64,000 bases of DNA, taken from positions 42,198-106,197 of the IMG/VR virus record IMGVR_UViG_3300035698_017294. One strand, written 5' to 3'. This document shows positions 27,087 through 49,947 of the stretch, piece by piece (positions within the stretch are counted from its first letter, which is position 1; every line of letters begins with the position of its first letter). This stretch comes from a virus. The position numbers and the translations under genes are program-made. A model generated the notes under the pieces. The model ran no database searches. It saw nothing but the letters and a program-made list of their open reading frames with translations, and was not told where the DNA came from.

Positions 27087-27888
27087 CTTACCACACTTGC
27101 TTTCACAAGCCAGCTATTAAGCTGTTGTAGTCTGGACTATATCATCATCTTCAGCATTACCTGCTAAGAGCCCGGCGTATAGTCTCTGAGGGGTCATTAC
27201 AGACTTCCCTGCGGATTGCCAATTGTTTCATTCTACACATTGTTACTTGACAAATCAGTCCAAATTTGGTAGACTTGTAGTAGTGCAGACTTTACGGGTT
27301 TCCCGCATATAGCCAGGTTCCATCTAATTATTTCTAACCAGAGGCTCAGATTCATGAAAAATATATCAAAAGATGTTTTGTCAGAAATGTATTTAACGCA
27401 GAAACTTAATCCATACGAAATAAGTAATATACTAGACTGCGATCATAAAACAGTTCGTAGATACCTAAAATTACATAAGATACAACTACGTACTGCGTCT
27501 GAGTATAATTACTTACCTCGAGTTTCGCATACTAATCCCACTAAAATAGAGTATATGCAGCCTAAATCAATAGCGGCGCATATTGCCTATTTATGCGAAG
27601 GTTGGCACACTAATAAAACTAATGGGCTTTATTTCTGTAATACAGATCCAAATTTAAATGATCTCATGTTGTGGTGCCTCAAAGAGATATACAATGCTAA
27701 AACTATTAGATTGCGCATAATGGCAAAGTCTTTAGAGTCGGCAAAGCATTTATTAACATTCTATCCTAATACACCAGTAAGTGTAGAGTTAGATAGAAAG
27801 ACACCAATACTTAGAATTGTCTCGGGCGGGAAAACATTTGCTCGGGACTTCATTAAAAACGCTTATGATATAATTGATTCACTTGGTT
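27087..27888 (-). mobile_element. Group I intron in tRNA-Leu, 802 bases
   Basis: On the minus strand the catalytic core elements occur in order near the 3' end: a P-like GGCAATCCGCAGGGAAG, an R-like CCTCAGAGACTATACG, and an S-like ATATAGTCC, with the P7 pairing GACTAT/ATAGTC. The intron ends in G (27087), and the upstream exon ends in T, as group I splicing requires. The internal guide sequence was not resolved by eye. The 5' half is filled by an antisense ORF. Confidence 0.85.
27247..27275 (+). promoter_or_regulatory. Plus-strand promoter inside the intron
   Basis: TTGACA (27247-27252), 17 bases, TAGACT (27270-27275). It lies 80 bases upstream of the antisense ORF, the only plus-strand gene in the first 59 kb, and explains how that gene can be expressed. 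Confidence 0.55.
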
Positions 27889-27890
27889 AA
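27354..27890 (+). CDS. Intron-borne helix-turn-helix protein, probable homing endonuclease
   Basis: A 178-residue protein coded opposite to the intron RNA. The N-terminal third is a helix-turn-helix (SEMYLTQKLNPYEISNILDCDHKTVRRYLKLHKI). The rest (AAHIAYLCEGWHTNKTNGLYFCNTDPNLNDLMLWCL...) resembles a single degenerate LAGLIDADG repeat of the kind seen in small endonucleases that act as dimers. Catalytic acidity is not certain (CEGWH). Its stop codon ends two bases into the 5' exon, so the ORF fills the intron up to the splice site. Confidence 0.65.
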   Translation: MKNISKDVLSEMYLTQKLNPYEISNILDCDHKTVRRYLKLHKIQLRTASEYNYLPRVSHTNPTKIEYMQPKSIAAHIAYLCEGWHTNKTNGLYFCNTDPNLNDLMLWCLKEIYNAKTIRLRIMAKSLESAKHLLTFYPNTPVSVELDRKTPILRIVSGGKTFARDFIKNAYDIIDSLG

Positions 27891-36260: not shown

Positions 36261-36810
36261 GTGTACTAGCTTTACTTCTTGCGACTGGTCGTTAGTAATA
36301 TCGCATTGGCCGGTTTTCCGCCTTTGCACTAATACCTGCGCAGCTTGGAAAGCGGAGCGGGTGATCGTGGTTGGCGGAAAAAAGGCCTGGAGGCGATTAT
36401 TACCGGCGATCAATATCGCGTCTTCAATAATCGTCCGAGACGTTACGTCCCAGAATGTGATAGCCTAAAGCTAGTTAGTTTTACTTTTTGGCGGTACCCC
36501 TCTACAACGATAGGTTGTCGATAGATTGTTCCCGAGCGAATGCGAGGGAAAATCTGGCGATAAGAGGTGGTTCGCCAACTTTGGACTTGTTGGGGATCCG
36601 GATCCCCGATCGGGGAGCCCCGCACGCGTCGGGGCGCCTGCGGTCCGGAGAGCCGGAGACCTGGAAAGCCCATTTTGGAACAAAACGTGTTCCCGCGAGA
36701 CGTTACGTCTCACAGCATTACGAATCACCGTGGGCTGCACTAGCCTGAACTCGGCTACTACAGATTACGCTGATTTTGACCGTAACACATATCTAAATCT
36801 AAAACTAAAG
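36261..36810 (-). ncRNA. Structured intergenic region with GC-rich palindromes
   Basis: No convincing gene. Visible structure: TTTTCCGCC/GGCGGAAAA and CGATTATT/AATAATCG inverted repeats; two copies of GAGACGTTACGTC (36437 and 36697, the second a near-perfect palindrome GAGACGTTACGTCTC); and a dense palindromic block at 36592-36634 (GGGGATCCGGATCCCC, CCCCGATCGGGG, CCCCGCACGCGTCGGGG). A minus-strand AAAGTAAAACTAACTA resembles a segment of the adjacent tmRNA. Probably part of a large folded RNA. Confidence 0.45.
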
Positions 36811-37133
36811 TGGAGGCGAAGGGAGTTGAACCCTTGTCCACACGATAACGAAACATGCTGTTTCTTACAGGCTTAGTTAGTTTTTACACTTTTATTTGTT
36901 AATCCGGGGCGGTTCTGAAACTAACTTAGTAGTCCCCGGCGTTGGCCATTTGTTTAGCCGTGGTCTAGCGGCTTTCCGATCCGGCGCCGATTCCCTAACA
37001 TCGGAGTCTTAGGGTCGACGGCTACTTAGTTAACCTAAGCGGCTAGTGGTAAATATTCGTCAATTACATTGAAAGGAGTATCATGCCTGTAGCATATATC
37101 GATAGAATCGCATGTCGAAACCAATGCGCCCCC
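36811..37133 (-). ncRNA. ssrA: tmRNA (transfer-messenger RNA), one-piece
   Basis: Rescues stalled ribosomes and tags their products. The 5' end GGGGGCG pairs with 3' CGCCTCC; GGTTTCGACATG matches the canonical tmRNA 5' domain, and GGACAAGGGTTCAACTCCC matches the T arm region. Between them an open frame ends DEYLPLAA then TAG (37061-37035), the expected ...LAA degradation tag. Pairings such as CCGGGG/CCCCGG fit the pseudoknots. About 323 bases, close to the bacterial size. No CCA is encoded. Confidence 0.9.
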
Positions 37134-37149
37134 ATAAAATAATACAATT
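37134..37149. other. Short A+T-rich linker before the tmRNA 5' end
   Basis: It separates unit A from the tmRNA; no promoter is obvious, so the tmRNA is probably processed from a longer transcript. Confidence 0.35.
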
Positions 37150-37322
37150 TACAACTGCTGTGCTGTTACGCCAAAGACGGTGGGAAAGCGCTCCCAATGC
37201 CGCGGGCTCCCACGCCTTTTTCTCGGGAGTACCATTTAAGTTACCGCTCCTCTGGTTCGTTGCAGATGCAGGCCATCGGTGTCACTCTTTAAAGGGTGGC
37301 TGCTTCTAAGCCTACCTCGCCG
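37150..37322 (-). ncRNA. RNA unit A, resembling the 23S rRNA GTPase-associated centre
   Basis: On the minus strand GTAGGCTTAGAAGCAGCCA (37315-37297) followed by TTTAAAGAGTG (37293-37283) matches, from memory, the helix 43/44 sequence of bacterial 23S rRNA that binds L11 and elongation factors. Short flanking GGT/ACC and GGC/GCC pairs could form the closing helix 42. The unit then carries CCTGCATCTGCAACGAACC and ends GCACAGCAGTTGTA, both shared with unit B. Confidence 0.6.
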
Positions 37323-37363
37323 CTGTAAGGTGTATTCATATGTTGTTGTGTAAATTTATGTGA

Positions 37364-37540
37364 TACAACTGCTGTGCCGAGTTTAAGTCGACTAAAGACC
37401 GCTATCCAGCTGTGATAGCTACGGACGGTTCCTCCTTCACAGGGAGGAAAAAATTATCCGCGACAATAGGTCGTTGCAAATGCAGGCTACTGCCATCAAC
37501 ATTAAAGGCTCGCGTAATTGCGTCAACACCTGGCCGTTGT
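37364..37540 (-). ncRNA. RNA unit B, paralogue of unit A
   Basis: On the minus strand it starts with GGCCAGGTGTTGACGC, then CCTTTAATG, GCCTGCATTTGCAACGACC and ends GCACAGCAGTTGTA. The order and the two conserved blocks match unit A. Its start also resembles the 5' strand of 23S helix 42 (GCCAGGATGTTGGC). It includes a CCTCC/GGAGG hairpin. No protein-coding capacity seen. Confidence 0.5.
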
Positions 37541-37561
37541 ATAGATAAATTAAAAAGAAGC

Positions 37562-38672: not shown

Positions 38673-39560
38673 TTAAAAATTACCGTAGTTAACCTGTAAG
38701 CAAGTTAATCCGAGTTCCTTTCGCCACATATCTACAACTTGATCACGATCGTCCAGTACGAAGTCAACGTAATACTTGCCCTTCACATGTGCATCATATA
38801 GCTCACGCTTTACAAGGCTGTCCTTGCGATCGTCGCCAGGGTGCCGCATGAAAAGATCGGTATACTTAACTTTGTTATCAAACAACCATTCACGGGTGAG
38901 TGTCTCACATGATCCGTCGCGCCCAGATAAAAGTATCACGTGGCGAGTCGGATCTGCCATAATAAGGTCGTAAATAGGCTGACTAAGCGTGTCTAGCTTA
39001 ACCTTCTGGAATTCAAATGGCCCGCGATTACCGCGATGCAGCGCAAGAGTTCCATCAAGATCACAAATAATCGCACGTGGTAGAGCAAGATCCTGTACCA
39101 CCAAGTCAAGTTCAACATCTGGTTCTTTGATAAAGCTATCGTGGAAATCACGTATCACCTTTTCACCGACAGAGTTAGGGCAAACTAGGTCTCGGCGGAT
39201 GCACTCTTCTATAGGTACACTAAGGAAGTCCGTGTTGAGTTGTGCTACAACTGGATTTTTGCAACCCTCTTCCTTGTTGATCTCCTGCGCAATCTGCTGC
39301 ATGCGAGTCCAGTGCTTTGGGTGTAGATTTGTATCGTCTACAATAACACTGAAGCCCCCCTTTACTATTTGCTTTACCATCCAGTCGCGTGTTTTTAACA
39401 CAAGCTTTTCATTGTAAGGCGTCCACTTACCACCTAGCATCATACGCAGGTCGTCTTTGTTGACACGCTTGATCTGGCCAGGATGATCATTTACTTGTTG
39501 CTTCGCCCATGTCGACTTTCCCGACGCTGGAAGTCCCTTGACTACTATTATTTTCCTCAA
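38673..39560 (-). CDS. pseT: Polynucleotide kinase/3'-phosphatase (T4 Pnkp type)
   Basis: A 295-residue two-domain RNA-end-healing enzyme. The kinase has a P-loop GLPASGKST (residues 9-17) and DDTNLHP; the HAD phosphatase starts at about residue 165 with ICDLDGTLALHRG and later LLSGRDG and FVLDDRDQVV. It adds 5'-phosphates and removes 3' or 2',3'-cyclic phosphates left by anticodon nucleases. Its gene overlaps the Rnl1-like ligase gene by 74 bases, so the pair is coupled. Confidence 0.95.
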   Translation of the reverse strand: MRKIIVVKGLPASGKSTWAKQQVNDHPGQIKRVNKDDLRMMLGGKWTPYNEKLVLKTRDWMVKQIVKGGFSVIVDDTNLHPKHWTRMQQIAQEINKEEGCKNPVVAQLNTDFLSVPIEECIRRDLVCPNSVGEKVIRDFHDSFIKEPDVELDLVVQDLALPRAIICDLDGTLALHRGNRGPFEFQKVKLDTLSQPIYDLIMADPTRHVILLSGRDGSCETLTREWLFDNKVKYTDLFMRHPGDDRKDSLVKRELYDAHVKGKYYVDFVLDDRDQVVDMWRKELGLTCLQVNYGNF

Positions 39561-40611
39561 ACTTGATCCCCCTTTTTATTATTTTCCATATATACTCACC
39601 GGCTTTATCAAATCGCCTATCCCAAATATGGAACAGTAGGGCTGGATGCCGCTCCCGCTGAAAGCACTTAGCTACATACTTGCGCTCAGTATCAGGTGAA
39701 AGTTGCATCTTTTTAAGCGTGTTTAAGCCGCTGCGGATTAGATCGTCGTGCTTTTGATAAAACTTTGCGCATGTTTCGTCAATCCAATCCCAATGCTCTT
39801 CACCAGCGCCCTGGCGCAGGCTTTCAATCGGTTCACCTTTTATTATATAATCCAGCACAGTTTTCCCAGTCAGAGACATGCGTATACGTTGAAGCCGTTT
39901 GTACTCCTCGAACTTGACCTTCATTCTAAAGTCTTCTTTTGGGTAATACAAAACAAAGCCTTCTTTGTTCGTAAGATTAAGCTTTTGCGCACCAGCAAAG
40001 TCACGTGTTGCAATTGTATCAGCTGGGTATCGGTGCGGTGTGGGAAATCCTGGATTGTGATACGCTGTTTCTCCAAGCCTGTTGTCTATTGTTGCTACCA
40101 ATATAAGTTCTCTACGATCGCCGTAATTTATAACTAAACGATCTTCGGCGCGGTCGTCCGGATAGATGATTTCGAATTGATATGTCAACCCGTCTTTATA
40201 CTCTAAGCCACTATACTTTTCATTGAGGATTTTATTGGCTTGTATTGCCTGCTTGGAATCGAACGATCCACGTGTCGCTATGCCGCGGTAGTCACCATAG
40301 GCATACATAATGCCAGCATAGCCGTCCAGCTTATCGTATATTTCGAACTCGCTAATCGGTATTTCGCCGTCTTCTAGCTCATCAAAGTTAAAAAACTTGT
40401 ACAGCGGGCGAGAAATAACTTTCCAGTCATCATCAACAATCAATCCTCTGCACATCCTTACCGACAAGGGCCAGTACCAATCAAACATGGCCTTCTTGGT
40501 ATAGTTAAGTATCGATAATGGAATGGCTGGATCTGGATGATGCTGTAATCTTACGTACCCAGCATCCATCATATACTCAATATCTTTGCGCAGAGCGCCA
40601 TCGATAATCAT
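39487..40611 (-). CDS. rnlA: T4 Rnl1-like RNA ligase (tRNA repair)
   Basis: A 374-residue ATP-dependent RNA ligase. Motif I is IYDKLDGYAG (Lys94); RCMCRGLIV-like upstream sequence MCRGLIVDDDWKVISRPLYKFFNF is typical of Rnl1; motif III TYQFEIIYP, motif IV EGFVLYY and motif V MKVKFEEYKRL follow, then a C-terminal helical domain. With Pnkp it forms the classical phage tRNA-repair pair. Confidence 0.93.
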   Translation of the reverse strand: MIIDGALRKDIEYMMDAGYVRLQHHPDPAIPLSILNYTKKAMFDWYWPLSVRMCRGLIVDDDWKVISRPLYKFFNFDELEDGEIPISEFEIYDKLDGYAGIMYAYGDYRGIATRGSFDSKQAIQANKILNEKYSGLEYKDGLTYQFEIIYPDDRAEDRLVINYGDRRELILVATIDNRLGETAYHNPGFPTPHRYPADTIATRDFAGAQKLNLTNKEGFVLYYPKEDFRMKVKFEEYKRLQRIRMSLTGKTVLDYIIKGEPIESLRQGAGEEHWDWIDETCAKFYQKHDDLIRSGLNTLKKMQLSPDTERKYVAKCFQRERHPALLFHIWDRRFDKAGEYIWKIIKRGIKFEENNSSQGTSSVGKVDMGEATSK

Positions 40612-46026: not shown

Positions 46027-49000
46027 TTAGCATAATGAGAGTCCACATTGTGGGCACATTGTGCAACCTTCTTGCATTATCATTTGTGATCCACAGGACT
46101 CACATATTTTATTGGTTTGTGTACCATTCGGGATGTAGGATTTGAGTAGTTTGTTAAGTATAAAAATAAATGAACCTAGCGGCACTTCTGCCGTGTCTAC
46201 TGCATCCGTTATTTCCGTTATCGATACGTTGTGTCGCAATAGCAGCCCCAACATCCGACATATACGTTCTATGTTCGATTGGTGGTAGCTCTTTGTTTCC
46301 AGCTCTTTAATGTAGGGTTTTAGGAACTTACGTTTATGTGCTACCTTCCTTAGCAAGTCTAGCGTCTCCTTTGTAACAACTGTTTTTTCCGTGGAGTTAG
46401 TATGCGTGAATACAGCTATTGGCTTTTCTTTGTTAGACGTCGGAAATGCTAGTATCACGTACCATTTCTTATTTTCTGATTTAATTAAGTGACCTCGTGC
46501 ATGGAATGTCTCTGGAAACTTTACATTATACAGAATCTCCAGCTCTTCGTGCTCCTTCTTGGATAAAGTTTCCATAACAGTTGTCATGGTTCCCGCTCTG
46601 TATGTCGTAAGTCCCTTAATGCCTTTATCGTATGCTTTCATGTAGAAGTCGGAGAAATCATCAAAAGTAAAGCTAGCAGGAATGTTAACGGTTTTAGACA
46701 TACCAAGATGCAGGTATTTGTATATAACCTCCATAACCGACAAGTGCTCATCAATGCTTAGGTCTTCTGCGCCAGCATAAACTCCTTCATCGTTTAATTC
46801 CATCATACGACCAATTTCTACATTGTCAAGAACCCATTCCCACCCATAATCACGAATCGATTCTGCTTTGGTCATCCCACGATTTTTATCTATTTCATAA
46901 TTAACGCTGCCATATCGACAGGTTAGCACCTCTTCATCACCGCGTAGTTCCAGTTTAAAATCATCTGTTTCAAACCACTCGCCTTTTTTGGCGTCGGGGA
47001 ATTTTAAGTCGTCATATAGTAAGCCAGCAATATCCCCGTCGGTTACCGTGACCCATCTTGTATATTCTTTGCAGAACACAGGCTCTCCGCCTCCAGACAT
47101 TAGCCGCGCTAGTATGCCAGTATTTCCAGTAGGTGCCAATGTAGTAAGGTGTGAATTCCGTAGCCCGTGCTTTTTCATACCCCCTTCTAGGGCTGCTTTA
47201 GTTGCTGCAGGTAGAGGTAATGCTTTCCAGTAGTCTGTATTTATGTATTCATCATAATCAAAGTGCTCAAATTGGCCCTTTTCCTTAGCCAATAATACTG
47301 AGGCCGCGTACGAGTGATAAGTTATCCATTCGTATATTTCTTCTAACAGTTCCAGGAATTTAGGAGAGCCGTATCGTAAGCCCGCCATGAAGCCCAAAGA
47401 TCCCAGACCCATAACGCCAAGGCCTATACGTCGGAACGCCAGAGAGGCCGTTTCTAGCTCTTTCAGGGGATATGTAGTTATGTCCAGTATATTGTCTAAG
47501 AATCGTACCATTATGGGTATATCGCGGGCCAGCTTTGCGAAATCAAAAATACTTGATTTTGAGTCCCAGTAAGCCGGTAAATTGATGGAGCCAAGATCGC
47601 ATACTCCTGTAGCCATAGGCACCTCACCACACTGTAAACTATTTATATAATGCGTGAACTTTTTTTCAACTCCTTCAACTTTACATGCAGTAAAAAAGTT
47701 ATGAAAGTCATCTACGGTTCCATTATAAACATCTTCTTTGCCAACATGTGTGACTGAAACCACTCTGTGATTGAAATTAACAGCAGCTTCTTGTAAAGCC
47801 CTATAAGTTGGGAATGGGGAAGTCTTTCCAAACCTAATTGGTACTTTATTTTCTTTGCACAGTTCTTCGAATTCCACTTTCATAGGATTTTTTTTTAATT
47901 TAAATTTAAGGTCGGTATAAAGCTTTAGTTGCGCTTGCCTCGCATTTTGTTTATACTTTTCCTTTTCTATGCGTTGGCCACATGTAGCGGAGCAAACGCC
48001 CTGTTCGCGTCTAGTATAAGTTACATTGAAAGAACTGCCACACAATTCGCATTTTTTATTTATCCTAACTTGATTCCTTTCATCAAAATAAGCATCATAC
48101 CCAGAGGCAAGCGCCTCCTTATAAGTAAGTAATGCCTTTTGACCGACTTCATCAAAAGATTCAAAACCGGCGTCAAGTGCAGCCCATTTGGCTAATCCAT
48201 CTATAGCGCCTAGATGATTTACTCGCCAATCGGAAAATTTTTGTGGCAATCCATGTTCTTTTGCATAGGCCCACCATTCGCGACTACCAAAACGACGACC
48301 TTCTTGTTTTGTGAGTATTACAGCATGTTTTTTCAAGTCCTCGTTAGTGTATCCAGAATAACGTCCATTGCCTGACCCGGAAACCGACTCAGACATATTA
48401 TCATGGTATCTTTGTTTCTCTTCGTCACTGGCATTTTTATACCAACGGTTCATTGGATTCTTTTCACCGCGCATATCTTCGCCGTGCAACTTATCATGCG
48501 CTTGTTTGGTCATCATTTCTAAATTAGCCGGCCTATTATTTTGGGCATTTCGGTCCTTATGGTGGATTACATGCGCAGCTGGAATACTCTCTAAATTATT
48601 ATGAAATTGGCAGATGAACCTATGCTCTGCACAATGAGTTTTTTTATCTCCGTTCTGAAGCCAAATGTATTCTTGAGAATTAGAATTTGCTCCTGGAAAA
48701 ATTCCTTTAATGGTTTTAAAAGATTTCGTTACAATACTTAAACTATCTCCAGGAATCAATTTAGCAGCTTCGCGGTAATCGCCGGAAGTCAATTTAAATT
48801 TGTGATTTTTTGTAACACGTGTTTTACTGCCATCATCTAATAGTACTTCGTAGATATCCTCATGCCCCGTAAATCTAGGATGTCGCATATATCTAATTGC
48901 AATTCTATCTTTATCATCATAGCAGAATACTGGAACGTCTTTGCCGTCGTCTACGAGAGTTTTTATTGGTACATTTCCACGACCGTCTGCTGTATATACC

Positions 49001-49947
49001 AGAGTATCCCCAGTGATACATGGGTTAGTTTGGAAAACCTTTTCCGCGTAACTCATCGGATTCATTTTGTTTACTATATCTAAAAATAAAATGCCCGGTT
49101 CATTGCGAGTGTATGAAGCTGTCATTAGCATATCATACAGTTCCTTGGCCTTTATAGTTTCGTATACGATAACTGGATAACCTTTAGCATGCCATAATTC
49201 TAGGTCCCCGTTCCATTCTTCCTCATACTGCTCATACGTAGTATCCGGATAAACCAGATCCCAGTCTTTATCATCTTTTACACATTGCATGAAGCCATCT
49301 GTGACACCTACAGACATGTTGAACTTTGTTAGAAAGTCCTTTTTCAGTTTCGCATTTATAAAGTCCTTGATGTCGGGATGCCATATACTCAGCACGAACA
49401 TCATGGCACCTTTGCGTAGTTTCTTTTTAAGGTCGGTGCGCTCTGCGTCACGATCTAATTTCGCTTCGCCGCCACCACGTGTGATGACTGCGGACACCTT
49501 ATCCCATATCTCTGCAAAGGCAACTGGGCCAGGAGTTGTGGATTTAATGCCCTCAATAACAGTACCAGAAGGCCGCAGATAAGACAGGTTAGTTCCGTAA
49601 CCAGCTTCACTCTTTAGTATGTGGGCTGCCATCTTAATCTGATTGAAGATATTTTCCAAGCTGTCTACATCTTTTATCCCATTGTCGGCTGGATGCATTG
49701 TAGTACAGTTAATAAGTGTTGTGTTCTTGTAGGTTGTGCCGGCATTTGCAATTATGCGGCCACCGGGGATAAATGGTTTTAGTGTTGGTGATAATATATT
49801 TAAAAACGAGTTATATGCTTGTTCTTTTTGCTCAGGAAGTTCTGCTGTTGCCGCAGCGTGTGCTACACGTTCCCAAGTCTGTTCTTCTGATTCACCGTTG
49901 AATCTATAATTAGTGTCCCACAGTTCGTGCGGCAAATTACTTGTCAT
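46027..49947 (-). CDS. nrdJ: Ribonucleotide reductase large chain, probably class II, with an intein
   Basis: The precursor has 1306 residues; removing the intein leaves about 843. Extein motifs include GGRIIANAGT, TLINCTTM, GYGTNLSYLRPSG, NEPGILFLDIVNKMNP, the split FQTNP/CGEVPM, GVCDLGSINLPAY, LAPTGNTGILA, and a C-terminal zinc-ribbon-like CESCGSQ...CTMCPQCG typical of B12-dependent NrdJ. No small subunit gene is seen in the window, which also favours class II. It supplies dNTPs for phage replication. Confidence 0.88.
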   Translation of the reverse strand: MTSNLPHELWDTNYRFNGESEEQTWERVAHAAATAELPEQKEQAYNSFLNILSPTLKPFIPGGRIIANAGTTYKNTTLINCTTMHPADNGIKDVDSLENIFNQIKMAAHILKSEAGYGTNLSYLRPSGTVIEGIKSTTPGPVAFAEIWDKVSAVITRGGGEAKLDRDAERTDLKKKLRKGAMMFVLSIWHPDIKDFINAKLKKDFLTKFNMSVGVTDGFMQCVKDDKDWDLVYPDTTYEQYEEEWNGDLELWHAKGYPVIVYETIKAKELYDMLMTASYTRNEPGILFLDIVNKMNPMSYAEKVFQTNPCITGDTLVYTADGRGNVPIKTLVDDGKDVPVFCYDDKDRIAIRYMRHPRFTGHEDIYEVLLDDGSKTRVTKNHKFKLTSGDYREAAKLIPGDSLSIVTKSFKTIKGIFPGANSNSQEYIWLQNGDKKTHCAEHRFICQFHNNLESIPAAHVIHHKDRNAQNNRPANLEMMTKQAHDKLHGEDMRGEKNPMNRWYKNASDEEKQRYHDNMSESVSGSGNGRYSGYTNEDLKKHAVILTKQEGRRFGSREWWAYAKEHGLPQKFSDWRVNHLGAIDGLAKWAALDAGFESFDEVGQKALLTYKEALASGYDAYFDERNQVRINKKCELCGSSFNVTYTRREQGVCSATCGQRIEKEKYKQNARQAQLKLYTDLKFKLKKNPMKVEFEELCKENKVPIRFGKTSPFPTYRALQEAAVNFNHRVVSVTHVGKEDVYNGTVDDFHNFFTACKVEGVEKKFTHYINSLQCGEVPMATGVCDLGSINLPAYWDSKSSIFDFAKLARDIPIMVRFLDNILDITTYPLKELETASLAFRRIGLGVMGLGSLGFMAGLRYGSPKFLELLEEIYEWITYHSYAASVLLAKEKGQFEHFDYDEYINTDYWKALPLPAATKAALEGGMKKHGLRNSHLTTLAPTGNTGILARLMSGGGEPVFCKEYTRWVTVTDGDIAGLLYDDLKFPDAKKGEWFETDDFKLELRGDEEVLTCRYGSVNYEIDKNRGMTKAESIRDYGWEWVLDNVEIGRMMELNDEGVYAGAEDLSIDEHLSVMEVIYKYLHLGMSKTVNIPASFTFDDFSDFYMKAYDKGIKGLTTYRAGTMTTVMETLSKKEHEELEILYNVKFPETFHARGHLIKSENKKWYVILAFPTSNKEKPIAVFTHTNSTEKTVVTKETLDLLRKVAHKRKFLKPYIKELETKSYHQSNIERICRMLGLLLRHNVSITEITDAVDTAEVPLGSFIFILNKLLKSYIPNGTQTNKICESCGSQMIMQEGCTMCPQCGLSLC
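47632..49020 (-). mobile_element. HNH-containing intein in the ribonucleotide reductase
   Basis: Residues 310-772 of the precursor. Block A is CITGDTLVYTADG, block B has TKNHKFKL, block F is VYNGTVDDFHNFFTA, and the end is YINSLQ before Cys+1 of CGEVPM. The last residue is Gln, not Asn, a rarer but known type. A homing endonuclease of the HNH type sits in the middle (HVIHHKDRNAQNNRPANLEMM), followed by a CELCG/CSATCG zinc pair. Confidence 0.85.

Follow-up and report, generated by a model that had tools for sequence, protein, structure and literature searches.

A free-standing RNA with the fold of the 23S rRNA GTPase-associated centre in phages and two plasmids, and its possible role as a decoy for uL11

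Background

The GTPase-associated centre (GAC) of 23S ribosomal RNA (rRNA) comprises helices 43 and 44 and forms the 58-nt domain bound by ribosomal protein L11 (uL11). The present analysis concerns an RNA element with the same helices, the same invariant fold bases and the same tertiary pair (23S positions 1082-1086), located on the minus strand of a 64,000-nt stretch (hereafter the window) of IMG/VR record IMGVR_UViG_3300035698_017294, a phage contig of about 106 kb (106,197 bases). Unlike the GAC of 23S rRNA, the phage RNA is free-standing, has its own covarying closing helix, holds a domain of ~40-350 nt within helix 44, and carries U1090-A1101 where the E. coli 23S rRNA has A1090-U1101.

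Several described systems share one aspect or another with this element. ROOL and GOLLD are structured phage RNAs found near transfer RNA (tRNA) islands (PMC12286853); the GAC RNA has the same setting but is much smaller, has no Rfam match, and has a copy of rRNA as its core. OLE RNA, hypothesised to sequester the ribosomal protein RpsU, has in common with it the proposal that an rRNA-like pocket retains a ribosomal protein (PMC12286853), whereas it is neither a GAC copy nor tied to phage tRNA arrays, and the GAC RNA has no Rfam match to it. Autoregulatory sites on ribosomal-protein mRNAs, such as that of uL1 on rplK-rplA, likewise mimic an rRNA binding site, uL1 and uL11 being encoded in one operon that uL1 regulates through such mimicry (PMC10931766). 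In contrast to these sites, the GAC RNA lies among phage tRNA genes and not ahead of ribosomal-protein genes, the members having no shared downstream gene. Finally, phage ribosomal proteins, tRNAs and transfer-messenger RNA (tmRNA) make up a translation takeover set (PMC7162821), while the part copied here is rRNA.

As for the RNA itself, no Rfam 15 family was matched at gathering score, the only matches being to tRNA, tmRNA and group I intron, and no description of such an RNA was found in the open literature (a search outside which preprints and most subscription papers lie). The GAC fold is thus known, and its free-standing copy on mobile elements, with an inserted domain, appears to be new with respect to Rfam 15 and the open literature.

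Results

The GAC element of the window

The minus strand of the window carries GGTAGGCTTAGAAGCAGCCA, then CCC, then TTTAAAGAGTG, with GGTAGGCTTAGAAGCAGCCACCCTTTAAAGAGTG at about 37315-37282. An earlier sequence-only reading had recognised here the helix 43/44 sequence of 23S rRNA, and this was borne out: with 2.3 Gb searched, 23S rRNA in 'phage' records matches the stretch at 90% over 41 nt (E 2e-5), and the match is therefore not due to chance. The two parts of the motif are as that reading described, except that three bases, and not four, separate them. It had also held the rest of helix 44 to be missing, which is wrong: TTTGGCGTAACAGCACA, the 3' half of this helix (23S positions 1091-1103 after a UUU(G) linker), is found at 37175-37159, behind a 108-nt insert that separates the two GAC halves. 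The short flanking pairs that it proposed as a closing helix do exist, with 9 of 10 positions paired (37328-37319 with 37158-37149), and they covary across relatives. The parts of the element are as follows:

37149..37328, minus strand: whole GAC-mimic RNA, ~180 nt (covariance-model match, alignment A2)
37319..37328, minus strand: 5' strand of the P1 closing helix, UUACAGCGGC (partner strand 37158-37149; covariation of the P1 columns is among the strongest in the family)
37293..37317, minus strand: equivalent of helix 43 (23S 1057-1081) with the A1067 loop (23S identity; 1058-1080 covariation)
37288..37292, minus strand: tertiary pair 1082-1086 (U-A in the window) and loop (pair counts in 119 members)
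37284..37287, minus strand: 5' strand of helix 44 (1087-1090, GAGU; almost all members retain G1087-C1102 and U1090-A1101)
37176..37283, minus strand: insert domain of 108 nt, splitting helix 44, with its own closing helix (insert-closing pairs covary)
37173..37175, minus strand: near-invariant UUU linker 3' of the insert (143-144 of 147 members per position)
37159..37171, minus strand: tip and 3' strand of helix 44 (23S 1091-1103), GCGUAACAGCACA (sequence match)
37149..37158, minus strand: 3' strand of the P1 closing helix, GCAGUUGUAA (covariation, alignment A2)

All 177 positions of the covariance model are matched by the window element, with 103.7 bits, although this sequence belongs to the training set and matches by construction. 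When the window RNA was folded by itself, energy minimisation yielded no signal (z 0.21) and did not display the GAC, so that the structural evidence is that of covariation.

Covariation and conservation of the fold

Mutual information with average-product correction was calculated for 119 non-redundant members without any structure being supplied. The 14 highest-scoring column pairs are all GAC or P1 pairs, and all exceed the highest value obtained in column-shuffled alignments: P1 pairs 1 to 8, 1055-1104, 1057-1081, 1058-1080, 1062-1076, 1064-1074 and the tertiary 1082-1086. The latter is a standard pair in 107 of the 119 members (U-A 64, C-G 32, A-U 11), while 1058-1080 is paired in 116, with three main pair types. 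In an alignment of 38 sequences, 88.1% of the cells are paired vs. 66.7% after shuffling, the covariation is 0.542 vs. 0.143 (none of 500 shuffles reached it, and slid controls gave 0.10-0.17), and 253 cells are changed on both sides vs. 88 in the shuffles. The mimicry suggested from some 30 nt thus extends well beyond them, to the secondary structure and a tertiary pair. The insert also has a covarying closing helix at its junction, between 1090 and 1091, and helix 44 is therefore a three-way junction; a near-invariant UUU stands directly 5' of G1091.

To assess conservation, each half was read from the members that the opposite half had retrieved. U1060, G1063, G1071, C1072, C1092, G1093, A1098 and G1099 are invariant or nearly so, and A1088 is kept in 97%. 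Helix 43 and the closing pairs of the 23S GAC are present, as are its tertiary-core bases (U1060/A1088, G1071, C1072, 1091-1100, 1092-1099). The most variable bases are those exposed at the tip (1067, 1068, 1070, 1096 and 1097), whereas the buried bases of the fold are fixed; position 1067 is A in 63 of the 84 members retrieved by the 3' half and G, C or U in the other 21 (25%). As read from these sequences, it is the fold that is under selection, and not the base at the tip with which thiostrepton and EF-G engage.

The covariance check proposed along with the sequence-only reading was run in reverse. Model R1, built solely from 38 phage-type RNAs, finds the real 23S GAC with 50-63 bits. Among seven controls, it matched all six that contain a 23S GAC and not the seventh, a 16S locus. 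In 295 genomes from the order of genome G001, 142 gave a match, and among the matches listed all are 68 nt long and insert-less, like ordinary 23S rRNA. That a conserved RNA with the GAC fold exists is practically certain. Identity with a 23S rRNA gene is excluded, since the 23S flanks and contiguity were looked for and are absent; the contiguous 58-nt domain is interrupted by the insert.

Size and carriers of the family

At least 119 stretches of IMG/VR contigs contain the motif GGCTTAGAAGCAGCCA. Compared with the E. coli 23S rRNA, only one of these loci, in a Paenibacillus phage record (L123), is embedded in a real 23S gene; in most of the others TTTGGCGTAAYAGCACA, the 3' half of helix 44, follows after roughly 40-350 nt, and a few are chance matches within coding sequence. 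Conversely, a scan for the 3' half alone gave 109 viral stretches, with the 5' half at most 450 nt upstream in 97 of them. The 3'-half pattern has 12 exact matches in GTDB (257 Gb from bacteria and archaea), six with the 5' half and six without it, the latter number being of the order that chance predicts.

Altogether, 147 distinct members were extracted from IMG/VR contigs, cultured phages and two plasmids, a lower bound on the family size, since members were retrieved by exact motifs. Cultured carriers include the Pseudomonas phages pf16, UNO-G1W1, Milchi and Astolliot, Cronobacter GAP32, Pectobacterium CBB, Serratia BF, several Erwinia jumbo phages, Xanthomonas XacN1, XbC2 and XaC1, Acinetobacter ME3 and Aeromonas 4_4572. 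At least two plasmids carry the RNA: plasmid 1 of Aromatoleum aromaticum EbN1, and a 909-kb plasmid of Pseudomonas sp. FeN3W, whose copy (L231:3000-3290) lies between tRNA genes, in a tRNA array. Carrier contigs are as long as 518 kb. Of 20 whole records, most hold a single copy and some two or three.

Concerning the insert, its length varies from roughly 40 to 350 nt, and no sequence is common to all inserts among the 147 members. For the insert subgroup to which the window belongs, a weak consensus was obtained. A hairpin module, CACCCC-GNRA-like loop-GGUAAGG, recurs in 25 of the 147 inserts (e.g. L009, L159 and L125).

Genomic setting

A tRNA or tmRNA gene was found within 1 kb of 88 of 139 elements, on the same strand in all 88 cases, and 54 of the 139 lie at most 20 nt from such a gene, vs. 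19% of random positions in the same loci. Many of the carriers are large phages, which as a rule hold the RNA within a tRNA gene array. The UNO-G1W1 copy is embedded in an array of 21 tRNAs, and the record of the window has about 20 tRNAs and one tmRNA. The position directly upstream of the tmRNA, already remarked upon in the sequence-only reading, is accurate and is one instance of this wider link. The two neighbours of the element are:

36810..37133, minus strand: phage tmRNA with tag DEYLPLAA (ARAGORN and Rfam RF00023), 15-16 nt downstream of the GAC mimic
37363..37542, minus strand: diverged tandem paralogue of the GAC RNA (direct repeats; fold z -2.1)

The paralogue has its own closing helix (AUACAAC/GUUGUAU) and has GCACAGCAGUUGUA and CCUGCAUYUGCAACGA in common with the GAC RNA; it has lost the GAC loops and is not picked up by the GAC covariance model.

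No conserved protein neighbour or gene order was found around the members, the commonest neighbours resembling homing endonucleases. Among 40 carrier records, none has an L11 gene over the cut-off, and four (L259, L260, L261 and L262) encode proteins with an L12 C-terminal domain over the cut-off, a count that covers carriers alone.

Elsewhere in the window, a gene pair at 38673-40611 (minus), 1.3-3.3 kb upstream of the RNA, resembles by its motifs a polynucleotide kinase/phosphatase and an RNA ligase, and a pooled family scan lists polynucleotide kinase, RNA ligase and RlaP RNA-repair families. A group I intron (27114-27368, minus) adjoins an open reading frame on the opposite strand (27354-27890), and at 46030-49947 (minus) a ribonucleotide reductase large subunit is split by an intein with an HNH endonuclease.

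Other rRNA copies

The same viral contigs contain hardly any other universal rRNA motif, with one occurrence of the sarcin-ricin sequence and two of the 16S 530 loop; rRNA contamination is therefore negligible and the GAC has been specifically copied. One candidate, which agrees with the 530 loop at 25/27 positions in L004, lies on the strand opposite to the tRNAs of that locus; it is probably due to chance.

When E. coli rRNA was compared with the carrier loci by BLAST, one further domain came up, the L1 stalk (23S 2111-2181), in L192 and L143, both of which carry a GAC copy too. A pattern scan for this domain yielded 16 viral stretches, three of them in real 23S genes (L263, L268 and L275). 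In the other copies examined, the flanks differ from 23S rRNA and several have their own closing helix; some copies lie in tRNA arrays.

L192:388-458, L143:1641-1711, L264, L266, L265, L267, L273 and L274: copies of the L1 stalk (uL1-binding domain) outside 23S genes

Discussion

In its conserved fold, the RNA resembles a binding site for a ribosomal protein, and it is predicted to bind uL11. The reading favoured here, with a probability of about 0.5, is that it acts as a decoy for host uL11; that it binds L11 is rather likely. Capture of uL11 is preferred because the fold is fixed while the tip is relaxed, because the L1 stalk has been copied in parallel, and because no protein partner was found. 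As a wider proposal, for which the odds are about even, phages and some plasmids would carry free-standing copies of rRNA domains (GAC and L1 stalk) as in-trans decoys for the ribosomal proteins of the stalks.

According to this proposal, a stable structured RNA would be expressed, probably co-transcribed with the phage tRNA and tmRNA genes and excised by the same processing, and its ends would fold into the GAC off the ribosome. This fold would capture newly made or exchanging host uL11 and leave part of the ribosomes without L11. Responses that depend on L11 would be weakened by this loss, foremost among them RelA/ppGpp signalling as uncharged tRNA accumulates in infection; alternatively, translation would be biased towards phage needs. 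What is specific to the phages is the variable insert of helix 44, which may make the RNA more stable or serve as a docking site for a second partner. Thiostrepton, which acts at L11/GAC, lowers RelA-dependent ppGpp (PMC9998046). By analogy, an L11 decoy could likewise lower ppGpp, and a phage with many tRNAs would risk uncharged tRNA.

Several points weigh against uL11 capture. Competition with thousands of ribosomes would demand an abundant decoy; the place at which the insert enters helix 44, between 1090 and 1091, may affect the docking of L11; part of the conservation of the 5' half stems from retrieval by exact motifs; and, with no conserved protein partner or gene order, nothing singles out RelA.

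The same observations bear on other explanations. The RNA could be a sacrificial GAC copy, serving as bait for a host toxin or nuclease that attacks the ribosomal GAC and working alongside the phage tRNAs and tRNA-repair enzymes. Its place within tRNA arrays would suit this, as would the polynucleotide kinase, RNA ligase and RlaP families of the window and the kinase/phosphatase and ligase-like pair. However, a sequence-specific nuclease would select the reverse of what is seen, namely a variable tip on a fixed buried fold, and to our knowledge no defence enzyme cutting the GAC has been described, which makes a bait unlikely. It is more doubtful that the RNA forms a GTPase centre off the ribosome which, via L11 and possibly phage L12-like proteins, recruits and traps EF-G, EF-Tu, RelA or a release factor. 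Huge phages do encode L7/L12 (PMC7162821), in line with the L12-domain proteins of four carrier records, but a count from carriers alone is no measure of enrichment, none of the 40 records has L11 over the cut-off, and A1067 is not conserved in a quarter of the 3'-anchored set. A role in holding or chaperoning phage tRNAs is improbable as well. Both rRNA parts copied by phages are stalks past which tRNAs move, the RNAs lie among phage tRNA genes, and the L1 stalk grips the tRNA elbow (PMC4810234); yet about 30% of the members are in fetched loci without a tRNA. The GAC, for its part, touches tRNA only transiently, during delivery.

Two further explanations carry far less weight. A sponge for thiopeptide antibiotics would account for the choice of domain, the thiostrepton site being the GAC (PMC9998046), but it is very improbable given that A1067 is replaced in 21 of 84 members and that exposure to thiopeptides is unlikely over so many hosts. 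Changes of A1067, moreover, confer thiostrepton resistance. As for a functionless fragment of a real 23S gene, whether contamination or a decaying capture, some helix-42 sequence retained in L027 and L193 suggests an origin by capture. Nevertheless, the GAC alone is kept, the members have a foreign insert, viral contigs hold hardly any other universal rRNA motif, and compensatory changes maintain the pairs; covariation argues strongly against this explanation, which can practically be discarded.

The known translation supplies of phages are tRNAs, tmRNA and a few ribosomal proteins, and a widespread viral copy of a functional rRNA centre would be a new level of takeover. Since carriers have been cultured on Pseudomonas putida and P. 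fluorescens (pf16 and UNO-G1W1), the proposal can be tested now, and it connects phage tRNA arrays with the L11/RelA stress sensor in a directly testable way. If the wider proposal of decoys for the stalk proteins is true, it would represent a viral takeover of the ribosome by rRNA mimicry.
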